Source of the DNA: an uncultured Candidatus Saccharibacteria bacterium
GTDB lineage: Bacteria; Patescibacteriota; Saccharimonadia; Saccharimonadales; Saccharimonadaceae
Length of the DNA stretch: 49,813 bases
Direction of reading: 5' to 3'
Assembly (NCBI GenBank): GCA_947302355.1
Contig: CAMYUU010000005.1
Span: 1-49,813, forward strand
Position numbers and translations under genes: made by a program. The notes under the pieces were generated by a model. It ran no database searches. It had not been told where the DNA came from and was given only the letters and a program-made list of their open reading frames with translations. Shown here one piece after another: positions 7,688 to 30,977 of the stretch. Within the stretch, counting starts at the first letter, position 1, and the number at the start of each line of letters is the position of its first letter.

Positions 7688-8509
7688 ATGAATATTTTAT
7701 ACTGTGGTGATAAAGGTATAGCTCGAGGAGCGTTGGTTTCGATTTTGTCGATATTGAAGCACAATAAAATGCCAATTCATTTTTATATCATGACGATTAA
7801 ATATGAGGATGTTGAGCCTTTTACGGAGAAGACGACAAAGTTTTTGAACGAGTTGGTGAAAAAGACGAATGTGAAAAGTTTTGTGAAGTTGATTGATGCT
7901 ACAGGTGTTTTTGTTAGTAATTTGCCGGAGAAGAATATGGGTTCTTACTTTACGCCCTGCTCAATGCTTCGGCTATATATAGATAAAGTCCCAGAGCTTG
8001 CCAAGCTGGACCGTATATTGTATTTAGATTATGATATAGTTTGCCGAGGGGATTTGACTGAATTTTACGATATGAATTTGGACGGAATCGAAGCAGCAGG
8101 TGCGCTAGATATTTATGGTAAGAATTTTTATCATTATCATGGGTTACTTAATTTTGATTACATGAATTCTGGCGTGATGCTATTTAATATCCCGGAATGT
8201 TTAAAATCTAATATGTTTGAAAAAGCTGTGAAGATTTGTATGGAAAGATGGATGATGTTGGCGGATCAAGCGGCTCTAAATAAAGCAATCGTGTGTCGCA
8301 AAATATTGCCTCGCAAATACAATGAACAAGCAGAGAGGCCTAAAAAAGATACGGTTTTGCATCATTTTTCGAATAATTTTAAGTTTTGGCCGTATTTTAG
8401 AGTGCAAAAAGTGAAACCTTTTGAAGTTGACAAGGTTCATGAGGTGTTAAAAATCACAGAATATGATGATATTTTGGAAAAATATAGTGCATTGAAAGAT
8501 AAATTGTAA
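7688..8509 (+). CDS. Glycosyltransferase family 8 protein
   Basis: A 273-residue GT8-type retaining glycosyltransferase that transfers sugars from nucleotide-sugars to a glycan, lipid or protein. Features are the N-terminal MNILYCGDKG, the metal-binding DxD within YLDYDIVCRGD (Asp114 and Asp116), the acceptor-side motif DYMNSGVMLFN, ADQAALN, and a late HHFSNNFKFW (the family's H..G/N..KPW-like site). It has no membrane segment. TATAAT at 7676-7681 ends 6 nt before the ATG, so the transcript is probably leaderless; an upstream AAAAGGAGG is too far away to serve. It lies directly before the large surface protein. Confidence 0.88.
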   Translation: MNILYCGDKGIARGALVSILSILKHNKMPIHFYIMTIKYEDVEPFTEKTTKFLNELVKKTNVKSFVKLIDATGVFVSNLPEKNMGSYFTPCSMLRLYIDKVPELAKLDRILYLDYDIVCRGDLTEFYDMNLDGIEAAGALDIYGKNFYHYHGLLNFDYMNSGVMLFNIPECLKSNMFEKAVKICMERWMMLADQAALNKAIVCRKILPRKYNEQAERPKKDTVLHHFSNNFKFWPYFRVQKVKPFEVDKVHEVLKITEYDDILEKYSALKDKL

Positions 8510-8570
8510 ACTTCTTAAATTCGCTTGAGATAACTTATTATAAAAAATGTTGATTTTTTTGGTGGTATGC

Positions 8571-8614
8571 TATAATTAGCTTATGCTAAAGTCATACGAT
8601 AAAACTAACTCTTC
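8571..8614 (+). promoter_or_regulatory. Promoter and start region shared with the second FISUMP gene
   Basis: TGC-TATAAT (box 8571-8576), TTAGCTT, then ATGCTAAAGTCATAC. The block from TATAAT through the first five codons is identical to 29020-29046 upstream of the paralogue. The ATG at 8583 is 6 nt past the -10 box. Confidence 0.8.
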
Positions 8615-10636
8615 ATATATATATATATATCAGCAATCTTAATTAGCTTTGTTTTTCTTTCTGGAGCCATGCTTGGCTCTAATACTGTATCCGCAGACGA
8701 TTCTGTAGTAGACGAAGTAACTGTCAATGTGCCAGTTTCTTGCACTATGACTGGTACTGGCATGAATAGCCATACCGCCGAGATTAATAATGGTACCTAT
8801 CAAGCTAATATTGGTACCACTACACTTAAAGCCTATTGTAATGATAGTAATGGTTTTTCTATATATGCTATAGGCTTTACTGGAGATCAATATACGGGAG
8901 AAGATCATACTAAACTAATAGGAGCTAATACTAATCAAAAGATAGCTACAGGAACAGCTACATCTGCAGGAAATCCAGACATATCTAACTGGGCGATGAA
9001 ACTAACAGCAGTATCTAGTCCAACTCCTACATATCCTATTACACTAGACAATGGTTATGGTAGTTATAGTGCAGTACCAAGTACATATGCTAAAGTAGCG
9101 CATAGAGACTCTGGTACTGATGTAGGAACTAATGCAGAAGGCTCTACTCTTACTACCACATATGCAGCCTATATATCTAGAACCCAAGTAGCTGATACTT
9201 ATGAAGGTAAAGTTAAATATACACTAGTTCATCCAGTAAATGAAACACCAGTCCAGCAGCAAGTTACGCCGTCTGGTTATATCGGTTATTATCCAAATAC
9301 TTCTATGGCGGTAGGGTCCATGAGCGATGTGAATGGTGGTCCAGTGCAAGAGTTGAGCTTGGCTAGAGATTGGAGTGGATGTTATTATACCGATTATAAA
9401 ACTTACTGTAACGACGAGAATTGGAATGAGATAGATGAAAGTACATTGCCTGATTTGGGCTATTATACCGATACTACTTTGCTCGCTTCTAATTATAGTC
9501 GTGCTGGTTATGGCTTTGCGGGTTGGACCGATGCCTATGATTACGAGACAAATCCTAACGCACATTTTTATGGGCCAAACGAGGATATCTCTTTTACTGT
9601 TGGGCAGTATATTTCGCCGAATGATGGCCTAAGTTTGTATGCTGTTTGGATTCCATCTGCTGGATCGCTTCAAGATTCTGCTAAAGTTTCTGAACTTTGC
9701 GGTACTGGTCAGGGAAGTCTTGTACGAGCATCAGCATCTGGTGCCGTGACGCTGGAAAGCGTCTCTGCATTGACGGATCAACGAGATAATCAGACTTATG
9801 CTATCGCTAAGCTTGCGGATGGTAATTGTTGGATGATTGAAAACTTAAGATTAGATAGCGAATCTACGCTAGGTAATAATTATGAGTCGTTGGCTCAAGG
9901 CTATGGTAAATATTCTGGTTCTGGTACTGACTATGGTAATTTTGTAGGTTTAGCTGATTCTGAGGATGATCATTTCTTTAACTCTACTGTGGCGAATAAT
10001 TTGTACAGTACTAACGGCAGCTATGATACTATACAAATAGGAAATAGTGATTATCCATCGCGACGCATGCCGAGATATAATCATATTAACACATATTCTG
10101 ATCCAGATGATGGAACTAGGGCTACGAGTCTTGTTGCTAGTACGTCTTATCTTACTGTGGCAGGTGCCAATATTTATTCCTATGGCAATTACTATACTTG
10201 GCCTGCCGCCATCGCAAACACGAATTCGTATGGGCCTGAGATTGTTGATATAGAGGGGCGTACTCCTTCTGAGGCGGCGAATACTTCATTGTGTCCAACT
10301 GGCTGGAGGTTGCCATATGGGAGAAATGTTGGAAAGGGCATCGCTTCTGGTGGTTTTTATAATTTAGGGACAGAGCTTAATGCCGTAACTAATGATGCGG
10401 CTAGTTCTAGAATTTGGCGTAAGTTTCCGACTAACTTTCTCTATTCTGGTAACTATTATTATAATAGCGTTAATGACAGAGGTCGCGATGGGCGCTATTG
10501 GTCTTCTACTGCCGTCGATAATAGTTACAATTCTTCATATGATTTTACTATGGTGGAGGATTCTTATTTACGGCCTGGGGATGTTGGGGATTATAAATAT
10601 ATGGGGATTCCAGTTAGATGCGTAGTTGCTCCTTAG
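8583..10636 (+). CDS. Secreted FISUMP-domain surface protein 1, phase-variable start (out of frame as sequenced)
   Basis: The mature frame runs to 10636. It encodes a signal-peptide core (AILISFVFLSGAML, cleavage near VSADD), a conserved N-terminal domain of about 200 residues with paired cysteines, an InlB/Listeria-Bacteroides-type repeat (YGFAGWTDAYDYET to LYAVW), and a C-terminal Fibrobacter-type FISUMP domain (YAIAKLADGNCWMIENL, SLCPTGWRLP, YWSST, PVRCV). No in-frame ATG precedes the signal core. The ATG at 8583 reads KSYDKTNSSYIYIY and then stops at 8640. Removing one AT unit from the (AT)8 tract, or adding two, joins it to the signal peptide, giving a product of about 683 residues. An internal ATG at 8669 would lose the signal peptide. 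Codon choice is A/C-rich in the first 550 nt and changes afterwards. Confidence 0.82.
8615..8630 (+). repeat. (AT)8 simple sequence repeat in the signal-peptide region
   Basis: Sixteen nucleotides of alternating AT lie between codon 11 and the hydrophobic signal core. With 8 units the upstream ATG is out of frame with the surface protein; with 7 or 10 units it would be in frame. Confidence 0.9.
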
Positions 10637-10657: not shown

Positions 10658-11491
10658 ATGGCGAAAGCGGAACTATTCCAAAAAGACATCCCAAAAGAAG
10701 AACGTGTATTCTATTATGAATCGGAAGAAGATGATCCGATTAAGACGGATGAGCAAGAAAAAAAGCAAGAAGTAAGATTGCCTGAGGGGTATGAGTTTGT
10801 TCCGGCGAATCCGTTTGTTAGGTTGTATTCGGCGATTTTGTTTCGGATTTTTAAGCTATTCGGGCAATACTATGAGCGTGTATATTGGCAGGCGAAATTT
10901 TATGGGCGCGAGAAATTGAAGCAGGCGAAAGGGAAGGGTTATGTGATTTATGCGAATCACACTAATCCGTTCCATGATGTGTTTGGGCCGGCTCTAGCCG
11001 CTGACCGGCGGATTTTTACGATTATTTCGCCGGTTAATTTGAAAATTCCTGGAATTGGTAAATTCTTGCCAATGATTGGTGGGTTGCCACTTGGTAAAAC
11101 TAAAGATGAAAAGGCGGCGTTTAACGAAGCCGTAGATAAGAGGTTAGCACAAAAGAAAGTATTGGTGATTTATCCGGAGGCGCACGTGTGGCCTTATGCT
11201 ACAAAAATACGTAAGTTTCCAGCAGGGGATAGATCGTTTAAATACGCAGCGCGTAATAATTTGCCGATTTATACGATGACTACTACCTATCATAAGCGTA
11301 AAGATAAAAAACGCGGAGATTTGCCGCGTATGGATGTATATGTGGATGGGCCGTTTTATCCTAATCCAGAAAAGACCGAAGATGAAAATCGTGCATATTT
11401 AGCAAAAAAGGCTTATGATTCTATGGTAAAATATAGTAAGAAGAACACCTATGAATATTTTACATACAAGAAAGTAAATAAGAAAAAATGA
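10658..11491 (+). CDS. PlsC-like 1-acyl-glycerol-phosphate acyltransferase family protein
   Basis: A 277-residue acyltransferase-fold protein of the lysophosphatidic-acid acyltransferase family, which adds acyl chains to glycerophospholipid or glycolipid precursors at the membrane. The catalytic-type motif is NHTNPFHD (His101 to Asp107), with five residues between His and Asp instead of the usual four; FPEG is replaced by YPEAHVWP. A hydrophobic stretch around 50-65 probably associates with the membrane. The N-terminal 45 residues are acidic. A TGC-TATAAT box at 10643-10648 ends 9 nt before the ATG. The downstream GT8 gene overlaps its stop by 4 nt, so the two are co-translated, perhaps acting on the same glycolipid. 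Confidence 0.8.
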   Translation: MAKAELFQKDIPKEERVFYYESEEDDPIKTDEQEKKQEVRLPEGYEFVPANPFVRLYSAILFRIFKLFGQYYERVYWQAKFYGREKLKQAKGKGYVIYANHTNPFHDVFGPALAADRRIFTIISPVNLKIPGIGKFLPMIGGLPLGKTKDEKAAFNEAVDKRLAQKKVLVIYPEAHVWPYATKIRKFPAGDRSFKYAARNNLPIYTMTTTYHKRKDKKRGDLPRMDVYVDGPFYPNPEKTEDENRAYLAKKAYDSMVKYSKKNTYEYFTYKKVNKKK

Positions 11492-28449: not shown

Positions 28450-29028
28450 ATGGAGTATTTGGGTAAAAATAGAATTTTAATCATTATAACCGGTGAATTG
28501 GCGGCGGGTAAGACTACTTATGGCACAAAAATAGCAAAGGCGCTTGGAATGCCATTTTTAAGTAAAGACAGAATTAAGGAAATTTTATATGATTCTTTGG
28601 GTGAAGTACTGGATTATGAGGCTAAGCGAAAAATGGGCGCTAGTAGTTACGCTGTGTTTTATTATGTTATCGAGGAGCAGATGAGAGCTGGTTTACCTAT
28701 GGTGGTAGAGAGCAATTTTGTGAAGGAATCTGTGCCGATTTTGAAGAATTTGCTTGATAAATATGGTTATAAGCGCGTCACGGTTAGATTTGAAAGCGAC
28801 TTAAAGGTATTACATGAAAGATTTTTGAAGCGGGAATATTCTAGCGAGAGGCATGAAGGTTTAGTCTCGAATGGGACTTTTGATGATTTTGAATATTTTA
28901 AAAAGGTGGCGATAGAATCAAGAGAGTTTAAAATAAATGATGATGAAATTTTGGTAGATACGACGGATTTTGCTAAGGTTGATTTTGCTGGAATTATTAA
29001 AAAAATACAAAGCTTGTGTTATAATTAG
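28450..29028 (+). CDS. P-loop kinase-like ATPase
   Basis: A 192-residue protein with a Walker A motif at 16-23 (GELAAGKTT), a LSKDRIKEILYDSLG segment typical of zeta-toxin/CPT-like and small-molecule kinases, VVESNFVKE as the second strand, and a lid-like LHERFLKREYSSERHEG. It probably phosphorylates a small molecule; the substrate cannot be named. A zeta-toxin identity is unlikely because no antitoxin gene is adjacent. It begins 18 nt after rnhA without a clear ribosome site. Its end carries the promoter of the second surface protein. Confidence 0.72.
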   Translation: MEYLGKNRILIIITGELAAGKTTYGTKIAKALGMPFLSKDRIKEILYDSLGEVLDYEAKRKMGASSYAVFYYVIEEQMRAGLPMVVESNFVKESVPILKNLLDKYGYKRVTVRFESDLKVLHERFLKREYSSERHEGLVSNGTFDDFEYFKKVAIESREFKINDDEILVDTTDFAKVDFAGIIKKIQSLCYN

Positions 29029-29063
29029 CTTATGCTAAAGTCATACAGTAAAACTAACTTTTC
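29020..29063 (+). promoter_or_regulatory. Promoter and start region shared with the first FISUMP gene
   Basis: TATAAT (29020-29025), TTAGCTT, ATGCTAAAGTCATAC, identical to the block at 8571-8597. The -10 box lies inside the last codons of the upstream kinase gene and ends 6 nt before the ATG at 29032. Confidence 0.8.
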
Positions 29064-30977
29064 ATATATATATATATATATATATTAATCAGCCTTGTTT
29101 GTCTTTCTGGAGTTATACTTAGCTCTAGTATTGCTTCTGCTGACGACTCCATAGTAGACCAAGTGACCATCAATGTGCCAGAATCTTGTACCATGACCGG
29201 CACTGGCATGAATTCTCATACTGCAGAAATTACTAATGGTACATATACTGCAAATATAGGTACTACTACACTAAAAGCTTATTGTAATGATAGTAATGGC
29301 TTTTCTATATATACTATAGGATACACTAATGATACATATGGTACTACTACACTAATAGGACAAAGTACTAGTAATACTATAGTTACAGGAACAGCTACAT
29401 CTGCAGGTAATCCTGACACATCTAACTGGGCTATGAAACTAACAGCAGTATCATCTCCAACACCTACATATCCTATTACACTAGACAATGGTTATGGAAG
29501 CTATAGTATAGTACCATCTACTTATACTAAAGTAGCACATAGAGATTCTGGTACTGATATAGGAACCAATGCAGAAGGCTCAACTCTTACTACTACATAT
29601 GCAGCTTATATATCCAGAACCCAACCTGCTGATACATATGAAGGTAAAGTTAAATACACACTTGTACATCCAGCAGACGCTGATGCGCCAGACCCTGCAA
29701 AACAGGCACGGGTTACCGAGTCTGGTAAAATCTGTTATTATGCGAATGCCTCCAATGCATTGGGTACTATGGGCTGTCAGACTATACCCAGCTCTGGTAC
29801 TAATGACGGCGTAACAGCAACTTCTGCCACACTACTCGCATCTAACTTTAGCAGAGAAGGCTATGGCTTTGCTGGTTGGAGTGACGTTTTTGATTATGAA
29901 ACTAACCAAAATGCTCACTTCTATGGTCCACAGGAAGATATTACTTATACTGCTGGACAATACTCCAGCCCCAATAACGGCCTAAGTCTATATGCCGTAT
30001 GGATCAAATCACAAGGTAGTCTACAAGATTCTACTAAAGTAGCACAGCTTTGTGGTACTGGTACAGGAAGCCTAACTACTGCTCCTACTGATGGTACTGC
30101 AAATCTATCTAGCGTATCCGCTCTTACTGATAGCAGAGACAACAATACATATGCTATTGCTAAACTAGCTGATGGTAAATGTTGGATGATAGAAAACTTA
30201 AGATTAGAAGCAGAAGATACTACTAGTGAAGAAGACATCGCTCTAGCTCAAGGATATAACTCTAGTTTTATTGGTCTAGCTACGGCAGAATCTAGCAACT
30301 TCTCAGATACTACTGCGGCTAATAGCTTATATAGTACAAATGGCTCTACTGTTAAAACTATTGACAGTACAGGGGGTAATCGAAGCTATAGATTTCCGCG
30401 TTATAATAATCTAAATACTCCAGCTAATGCTAGTAATAGACCGCAAAATCCTACCAGTAATTCATTCGCAGAAGACAATACTACGGCAGGTATGTATAGC
30501 TATGGTAACTACTATACTTGGGCAGCAGCTATCGCGGATACTACTCATTATCCTAGCGGAGATCATGACACTACATCCATTTGTCCAACTGGCTGGCAAC
30601 TGCCACTAGGTAATACTAGCACAGGAGATATAGCACAGGCTGAAGCAGATGCAGCAAACAAAGTTGGTGGGTTCTCTTATCTAGATCGTAAAATGGGTGG
30701 TACGGGAACTGGATCTGATACCGCTGCTGGTTCACTACGTTGGCGTAAATATCCAGTCAATTTCGTCTATGCTGGCGATGTTGACGGCAGTTCGGTGGCT
30801 CTTCGCGGTTCGACCGGCATTTATTGGTCTTCTGCGGCCGGCTCATATAGCAGTATCTACCCGTACGGTGGCGTTTACGTCTTGCATTTGACTAATAGGT
30901 TCGTTTACCCAGGTTCACATATCTTAAACTTCAAGTATGCCGGAAGGACTATTCGTTGTGTCGCTTCCGGCTTATAA
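29032..30977 (+). CDS. Secreted FISUMP-domain surface protein 2, phase-variable start (out of frame as sequenced)
   Basis: Paralogue of the protein at 8583. The mature frame encodes a signal core ILISLVCLSGVILSSS with cleavage near IASADD, an N-terminal domain nearly identical to that of paralogue 1 over about 170 residues, an InlB-type repeat (YGFAGWSDVFDYET to LYAVW), and a FISUMP domain (YAIAKLADGKCWMIENL, SICPTGWQLP, IYWSS, TIRCV). The ATG at 29032 reads KSYSKTNFSYIYIYIY and stops at 29086. Losing one AT unit from (AT)11, or gaining two, would open a frame of about 647 codons. There is no other ATG in frame before the signal core; a GTG at 29163 would remove it. The final 230 nt switch from A/C-rich to C/G-ending codons. 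Confidence 0.82.
29064..29085 (+). repeat. (AT)11 simple sequence repeat in the signal-peptide region
   Basis: Twenty-two nucleotides of alternating AT, at the same position as the (AT)8 tract of the first paralogue. The difference of three units is 6 nt, so both loci are in the same, out-of-frame, phase. Confidence 0.9.

Follow-up and report, generated by a model that had tools for sequence, protein, structure and literature searches.

How is a surface protein made from a gene whose only promoter-linked start codon lies in another reading frame? The question is raised by a locus in a stretch of 49,813 nucleotides (hereafter the window) from an uncultured member of the Saccharibacteria, bacteria with reduced genomes for which a life on other bacteria is generally assumed. 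The original prediction, made from the letters of this stretch, held that an (AT)8 tract between the start codon and the signal peptide is a candidate phase-variable switch.

Two reading frames separated by an AT tract

The first locus in the window (L008) comprises the following features:

8571-8576, plus strand: -10 box TATAAT, 6 nt ahead of the ATG, with a predicted leaderless start
8583-8642, plus strand: short ATG-initiated frame, 19 codons followed by TAA at 8640-8642, the predicted OFF product
8615-8630, plus strand: (AT)8, the putative slippage tract, out of frame as sequenced and in frame with 7 or 10 units
8630-8695, plus strand: signal-peptide core and cleavage region (SAILISFVFLSGAMLGSNTVSA), in a frame other than that of the ATG and aligned with in-frame paralogues
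8696-10636, plus strand: mature surface protein with an N-terminal beta-sandwich-like domain and a C-terminal FISUMP domain (TIGR02145)

Between ATG 8583 and the tract lie 11 codons (MLKSYDKTNSS), and because only 6 nt separate this ATG from the -10 box, the mRNA is probably leaderless, starting at or next to the ATG. The signal core SAILISFVFLSGAML, the VSA cleavage site and the FISUMP protein share one frame, which ends at 10636. Upstream, this frame is interrupted by a stop at 8606-8608 and lacks any ATG, GTG or TTG ahead of ATG 8669, itself situated within the signal core. The two frames are joined when the number of AT units is 1 modulo 3 (7 or 10), and the eight units present leave them out of register. 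Hence, the original description of the locus stands in full, namely the ATG, its 11 codons, the tract and the stop at 8640, the 2-kb FISUMP frame lacking an ATG before its signal core, and the joining of the frames on loss of one AT unit or gain of two. Pattern searches of the 726,768-bp assembly recovered only two tracts of seven or more AT units, both at the same site in paralogues of the FISUMP family; in shuffles of the window (AT)6 has a chance expectation of 0.01 matches.

The C-terminal domain passes the NCBIfam cut-off for FISUMP (TIGR02145; 57.7 and 50.4 bits against 41.65), and scores 22.5 bits with Pfam PF09603 (Fib_succ_major), below the gathering threshold of 33.9. An AlphaFold model (pLDDT 76.6, pTM 0.80) displays an N-terminal beta sandwich. 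Structure comparison, which was effectively one of the N-terminal domain, gave at best a weak likeness to TasA-type and fimbrial domains (best Z 8.7 with 9ikj, rmsd 5.2, 152 aligned), with many other rows at Z near 7; no chain had Z >= 10 against the model, and Foldseek returned no match for it at E<=0.001. Given the presence of a signal peptide, we infer that the protein is exposed at the surface. The label of adhesin that it was given derives from fold and domains, and adhesion itself is a guess; if it does adhere, the host bacterium or gut surfaces would be the presumable targets.

Copies of the cassette in the same genome

Two further copies with tracts, both absent from the original prediction, were found, one in the window (L010) and one with a CT repeat elsewhere in the genome (L017):

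29020-29046, plus strand: -10 box, spacer, ATG 29032 and first codons of the second copy, identical to the first locus
29064-29085, plus strand: (AT)11, out of frame in the same phase as the first locus; the ATG frame ends after 18 codons
29082-30977, plus strand: frame of the signal core and FISUMP surface protein of the second copy
Contig C1 of this genome (G000), 1456-1470 of the reverse complement, minus strand: (CT)7.5 between ATG and signal core of the third tract paralogue, out of frame in the phase opposite to the window copies

The 27-bp start block TATAATTAGCTTATGCTAAAGTCATAC of the first locus recurs without change at 29020-29046, and a search of viral contigs for this block gave no match. 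Two independent tracts thus share one site in two paralogues, with no other in the genome, and no single observation speaks more strongly for the tract being part of the gene. As is typical of contingency loci, both (AT)8 and (AT)11 are pure repeats in the 5' coding region with a unit not divisible by three, and the number of units sets whether the product is full-length or truncated, with 8 or 11 units leading to a stop after 18-19 codons.

The FISUMP surface-protein family has about 13 members in this genome. In nine of the ten without a tract, a start of this type is in frame with the surface protein, as against none of the three tract copies, which marks the start as genuine. The TATAAT-6 nt-ATG layout is common to eight no-tract paralogues, and the position of the tract is occupied in the no-tract copies by short or interrupted AT-rich codons, e.g. 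CATATATATGTA or ATGTATATATGTATATATTT. The in-frame copies, in which an identical or similar start leads directly into signal peptide and mature domain, are L009 (668 codons), L011 (637), L012, L013, L014 and L016, along with L018-L020, which are in frame up to the contig end; the lone exception, L021, starts in frame and breaks after 67 codons. The region of this exception (L021/L015, contig C3, ~56.7-57.4 kb) has no tract and continues in another frame after the break, being either a pseudogene or an assembly error. The tract copies, i.e. those with (AT)8, (AT)11 and a 15-nt CT run, reach a stop after 18-25 codons, and all three, both window copies included, are OFF as sequenced. The family is large in this genome, and any single copy is possibly dispensable.

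The first locus is flanked by a glycosyltransferase-8 gene upstream (7688-8509) and an acyltransferase gene downstream (10658-11491). In 19 of 19 relatives examined, the acyltransferase gene comes immediately after the glycosyltransferase gene, often with an overlap in TAATG, and in this genome a unit of promoter, leader, tract and gene (window 8507-10636) stands between them. Judged by this gene order, the first locus is a recent cassette insertion. Homology between L142 and L014 begins near the -10 box; these were considered as orthologues and rejected as such, as their flanks differ and homology sets in only from near the -10 box, which points to paralogous insertions. With the whole unit inserted between its neighbors, and with copies that can be homologous from near the -10 box onward, the switch seems to travel together with the surface gene.

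Tract length, reading frame and selection across the genus

Of 174 genomes of the genus, 93 contain the family according to a profile built on the N-terminal domain of the mature protein, with 1 to 35 or more copies each. Those relatives that carry a name are Saccharibacteria MAGs, many from the rumen, duodenum, jejunum or ileum of sheep, goat and yak. Among 132 strong members without a tract, 96 have an ATG linked to a -10 box or a Shine-Dalgarno (SD) sequence, and this ATG is in frame in 88 of the 96. The 174 genomes were searched for (AT)8, (CT)7 and G10, and an AT or CT tract was counted if it had an ATG linked to a -10 box or SD sequence ahead of it and a long frame after it. A sample of 24 tract starts, picked by hand among the matches listed (with the sole plausible upstream ATG being used for L276), comprises eight in frame (L252, L076, L083, L258, L305, L355, L276, L277), ten in phase 2 (L142, L008, L010, L308, L245, L029, L366, L367, L030, L284) and six in phase 1 (L263, L254, L267, L316, L317, L017). 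For these 24 starts among the matches listed, the comparison with equal thirds gives a chi-square p of 0.61, and such near-equal thirds fit a change in length that is blind to the frame, rather than selection for one frame or programmed frameshifting from one phase. Accordingly, ON (8) and OFF (16) alleles occur among related genes; as the survey holds one genome per species, these differences in length are between paralogues and species. The contrast between this genome, where the tract is out of frame, and those relatives in which it is in frame strongly suggests a random on/off switch in a tiny, episymbiont-type gut bacterium.

Near-identical sister genes within single genomes differ by a single repeat unit and by frame. 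In G028, L308 (OFF) and L355 (ON) have a common leader, MRVKTNSQS, and are exactly one AT unit apart before a shared GTTCTTGCTCTT, while L366 (OFF), ~90% identical to L355 in the tract region, has one unit more. G098 has a pair, L277 (ON) and L317 (OFF), with 86% identity and tract regions that differ by 2 nt. Tracts of three kinds (AT, CT and G) are found at comparable 5' positions. The -10/ATG/(AT)7 signature, searched as TATAAT-N4-8-ATG-N12-42-(AT)7, occurs in four of 393 genomes of the order, all four within the genus, and its reversed control in none. Contig ends at tracts (G048, G105, G152, G028, G098) were considered as a sign of mixed lengths and dropped, as paralogue repeats and low-complexity sequence also break contigs. 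G tracts of ten or more are present in 72 of the 174 genomes, though not in that of the window; in L026 and L331 the signal peptide ends in an out-of-frame G10. MutS (MutS_V, PF00488) was detected in 0 of 40 congeners, with 11 of 14 control genomes positive.

The tract copies might instead be pseudogenes, with one loss among ~13 copies being tolerated and the AT run a neutral accident. The high copy number and the existence of fragmentary or broken copies (L022, L015/L021) favor such an explanation, which we nevertheless regard as improbable, given that the OFF genes keep their 2-kb ORFs open throughout and one third of the tract genes are in frame. Moreover, the tracts are restricted to the 5' end: the 5' regions (130 nt per member, 18.2 kb) contain eight, as against none in the mature coding sequence of 80 family ORFs (139 kb). 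Family ORFs, those out of frame among them, have dN/dS of ~0.2-0.3; between own-genome copies it is ~0.16-0.33 (NG86) at dS mostly of 0.7-1.5, and the OFF copies L008 and L010 are no different from the others. By these ratios the coding sequence is under purifying selection, OFF genes included, and low dN/dS at such dS argues against permanently off genes, which should have decayed.

Another explanation is that the length of the tract is fixed, with the gene being expressed by programmed or tolerated frameshifting, whether through slippage of the polymerase or through a ribosome that hops +2 or shifts -1 on UAU/AUA. Both window copies indeed share a phase (2 mod 3), as do L142 and L029, and re-pairing two nucleotides downstream is geometrically possible. 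However, a programmed site should hold one phase, whereas eight of the tract genes are in frame and six in the opposite phase; all three kinds of tract (AT, CT, G) are used in the same way, and the no-tract paralogues are read in frame with no shift needed. This makes frameshifting very unlikely, and the mixed phases likewise speak against P-site re-pairing, which the original prediction had allowed for at a low level, as the main mechanism.

An error of assembly or sequencing, with the true length in frame, is just as unlikely. Short-read assembly could miscount dinucleotide units, the genomes are metagenome-type drafts, and several paralogues break contigs (C7, C8, C14), but errors would be needed in both window copies, and neither a split with about one-third in frame over many independent assemblies nor one-unit differences between sister genes is expected of tracts fixed in frame. 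Finally, translation from elsewhere, e.g. from ATG 8669, the first in-frame ATG, to give a protein without a signal peptide is scarcely credible, as this codon lies within the signal core, has a GGAG at a distance of only 2 nt and is ATA in the paralogues L009 and L010.

The starts of the paralogues, the mixed phases of the tracts, the one-unit differences between sisters, the purifying selection and the lack of detectable MutS all favor the originally predicted phase-variable switch. We consider it very likely, on these genomic comparisons, that the locus is a slipped-strand ON/OFF translational phase-variation (contingency) switch in a duplicating, leaderless surface-gene cassette. According to this proposal, the mRNA would begin at or beside ATG 8583, and slipped-strand mispairing during replication would lengthen or shorten the tract, located after codon 11 and before the signal-peptide core, by AT units. 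The secreted FISUMP surface protein would be made at 7 or 10 units, which bring the ATG into frame, and at 8, 9 or 11 translation would stop after ~20 codons, both window copies being predicted OFF as sequenced. The duplicated cassette of -10 box, start, leader, tract and surface gene, with ~13 copies here, would switch copy by copy, so that each cell would have a different surface repertoire. Slippage within a population, and expression, are implied by this proposal.

Wider repertoire and comparison with known systems

Tracts also occur in other contexts among the relatives in the genus. Type I restriction subunits (Methylase_S; L287, L279, L321) have GA/CT tracts of 14-29 nt within or between their two specificity halves, and adenine methylase genes of the EcoRI type (PF13651; L278, L282, L289) have GA/CT tracts close to the 3' end, where the frame alters the C-terminus. 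In L273 and L286 a CT tract is located in a short upstream ORF ending just before the SD and ATG of the family gene; the 3' part of this leader is identical in the two genomes, and the tract is possibly a leader-controlled switch. We deem it moderately likely that the genus has a genome-wide, slippage-switched repertoire, made up of surface cassettes with AT, CT or G tracts, EcoRI-type methylases and type I specificity subunits with GA tracts, and AT tracts in promoter spacers. In that case, surface and restriction-modification genes would undergo combinatorial phase variation in ultra-small episymbionts that lack MutS, presumably in response to pressure from host cells or phages. Tract length in metagenome reads would offer a ready assay for surface proteins relevant to host attachment or phage escape, and the genus-wide set of tracts makes the question of the surface proteins directly testable with public read data.

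The closest parallel is sabA of Helicobacter pylori, an outer-membrane adhesin whose 5' coding region holds a CT repeat; 7 or 10 units put the gene in frame, and slipped-strand mispairing turns it ON and OFF (PMC2715451). Both the dinucleotide repeat in the 5' coding region and the in-frame lengths of 7 or 10 units recur at the present locus, but the repeat is AT rather than CT, the protein and phylum are unrelated, and a predicted leaderless start and a multi-copy cassette set it apart; sabA, for its part, also has a poly-T tract in its promoter. The likeness is in working principle, the differences in length here lying between genes and species. In Haemophilus influenzae a (TA)9-11 tract controls the fimbrial surface adhesin hifA/hifB through promoter spacing (PMC2651432); the dinucleotide, the length range and the association with a surface protein are shared, whereas transcription is affected there and the reading frame here. 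Among genus relatives, AT tracts right after TTGAC-like -35 boxes are found upstream of small membrane or surface genes (L248, L268, L261, L262), and these are possible promoter-spacing switches like that of hifA/hifB. Families with the FISUMP domain (TIGR02145) have a C-terminal domain in common, and this membership says nothing on regulation. The nearest report from the CPR is on a Gracilibacterium, another CPR lineage, in which length variation of a hypervariable repeat gene has been ascribed to slippage or recombination (PMC6851277), but its in-frame 9-mer repeats change the length of the protein and do not switch its frame. In line with the original statement that none was known in Saccharibacteria, we found no report of slippage phase variation or contingency loci in Saccharibacteria or Patescibacteria among the open-licence papers searched. 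Slippage contingency loci are known mainly from animal pathogens and commensals, and a 2025 review asks whether this restriction reflects a database bias (PMC11868660); contingency loci in Saccharibacteria would place the same bet-hedging strategy in the CPR.
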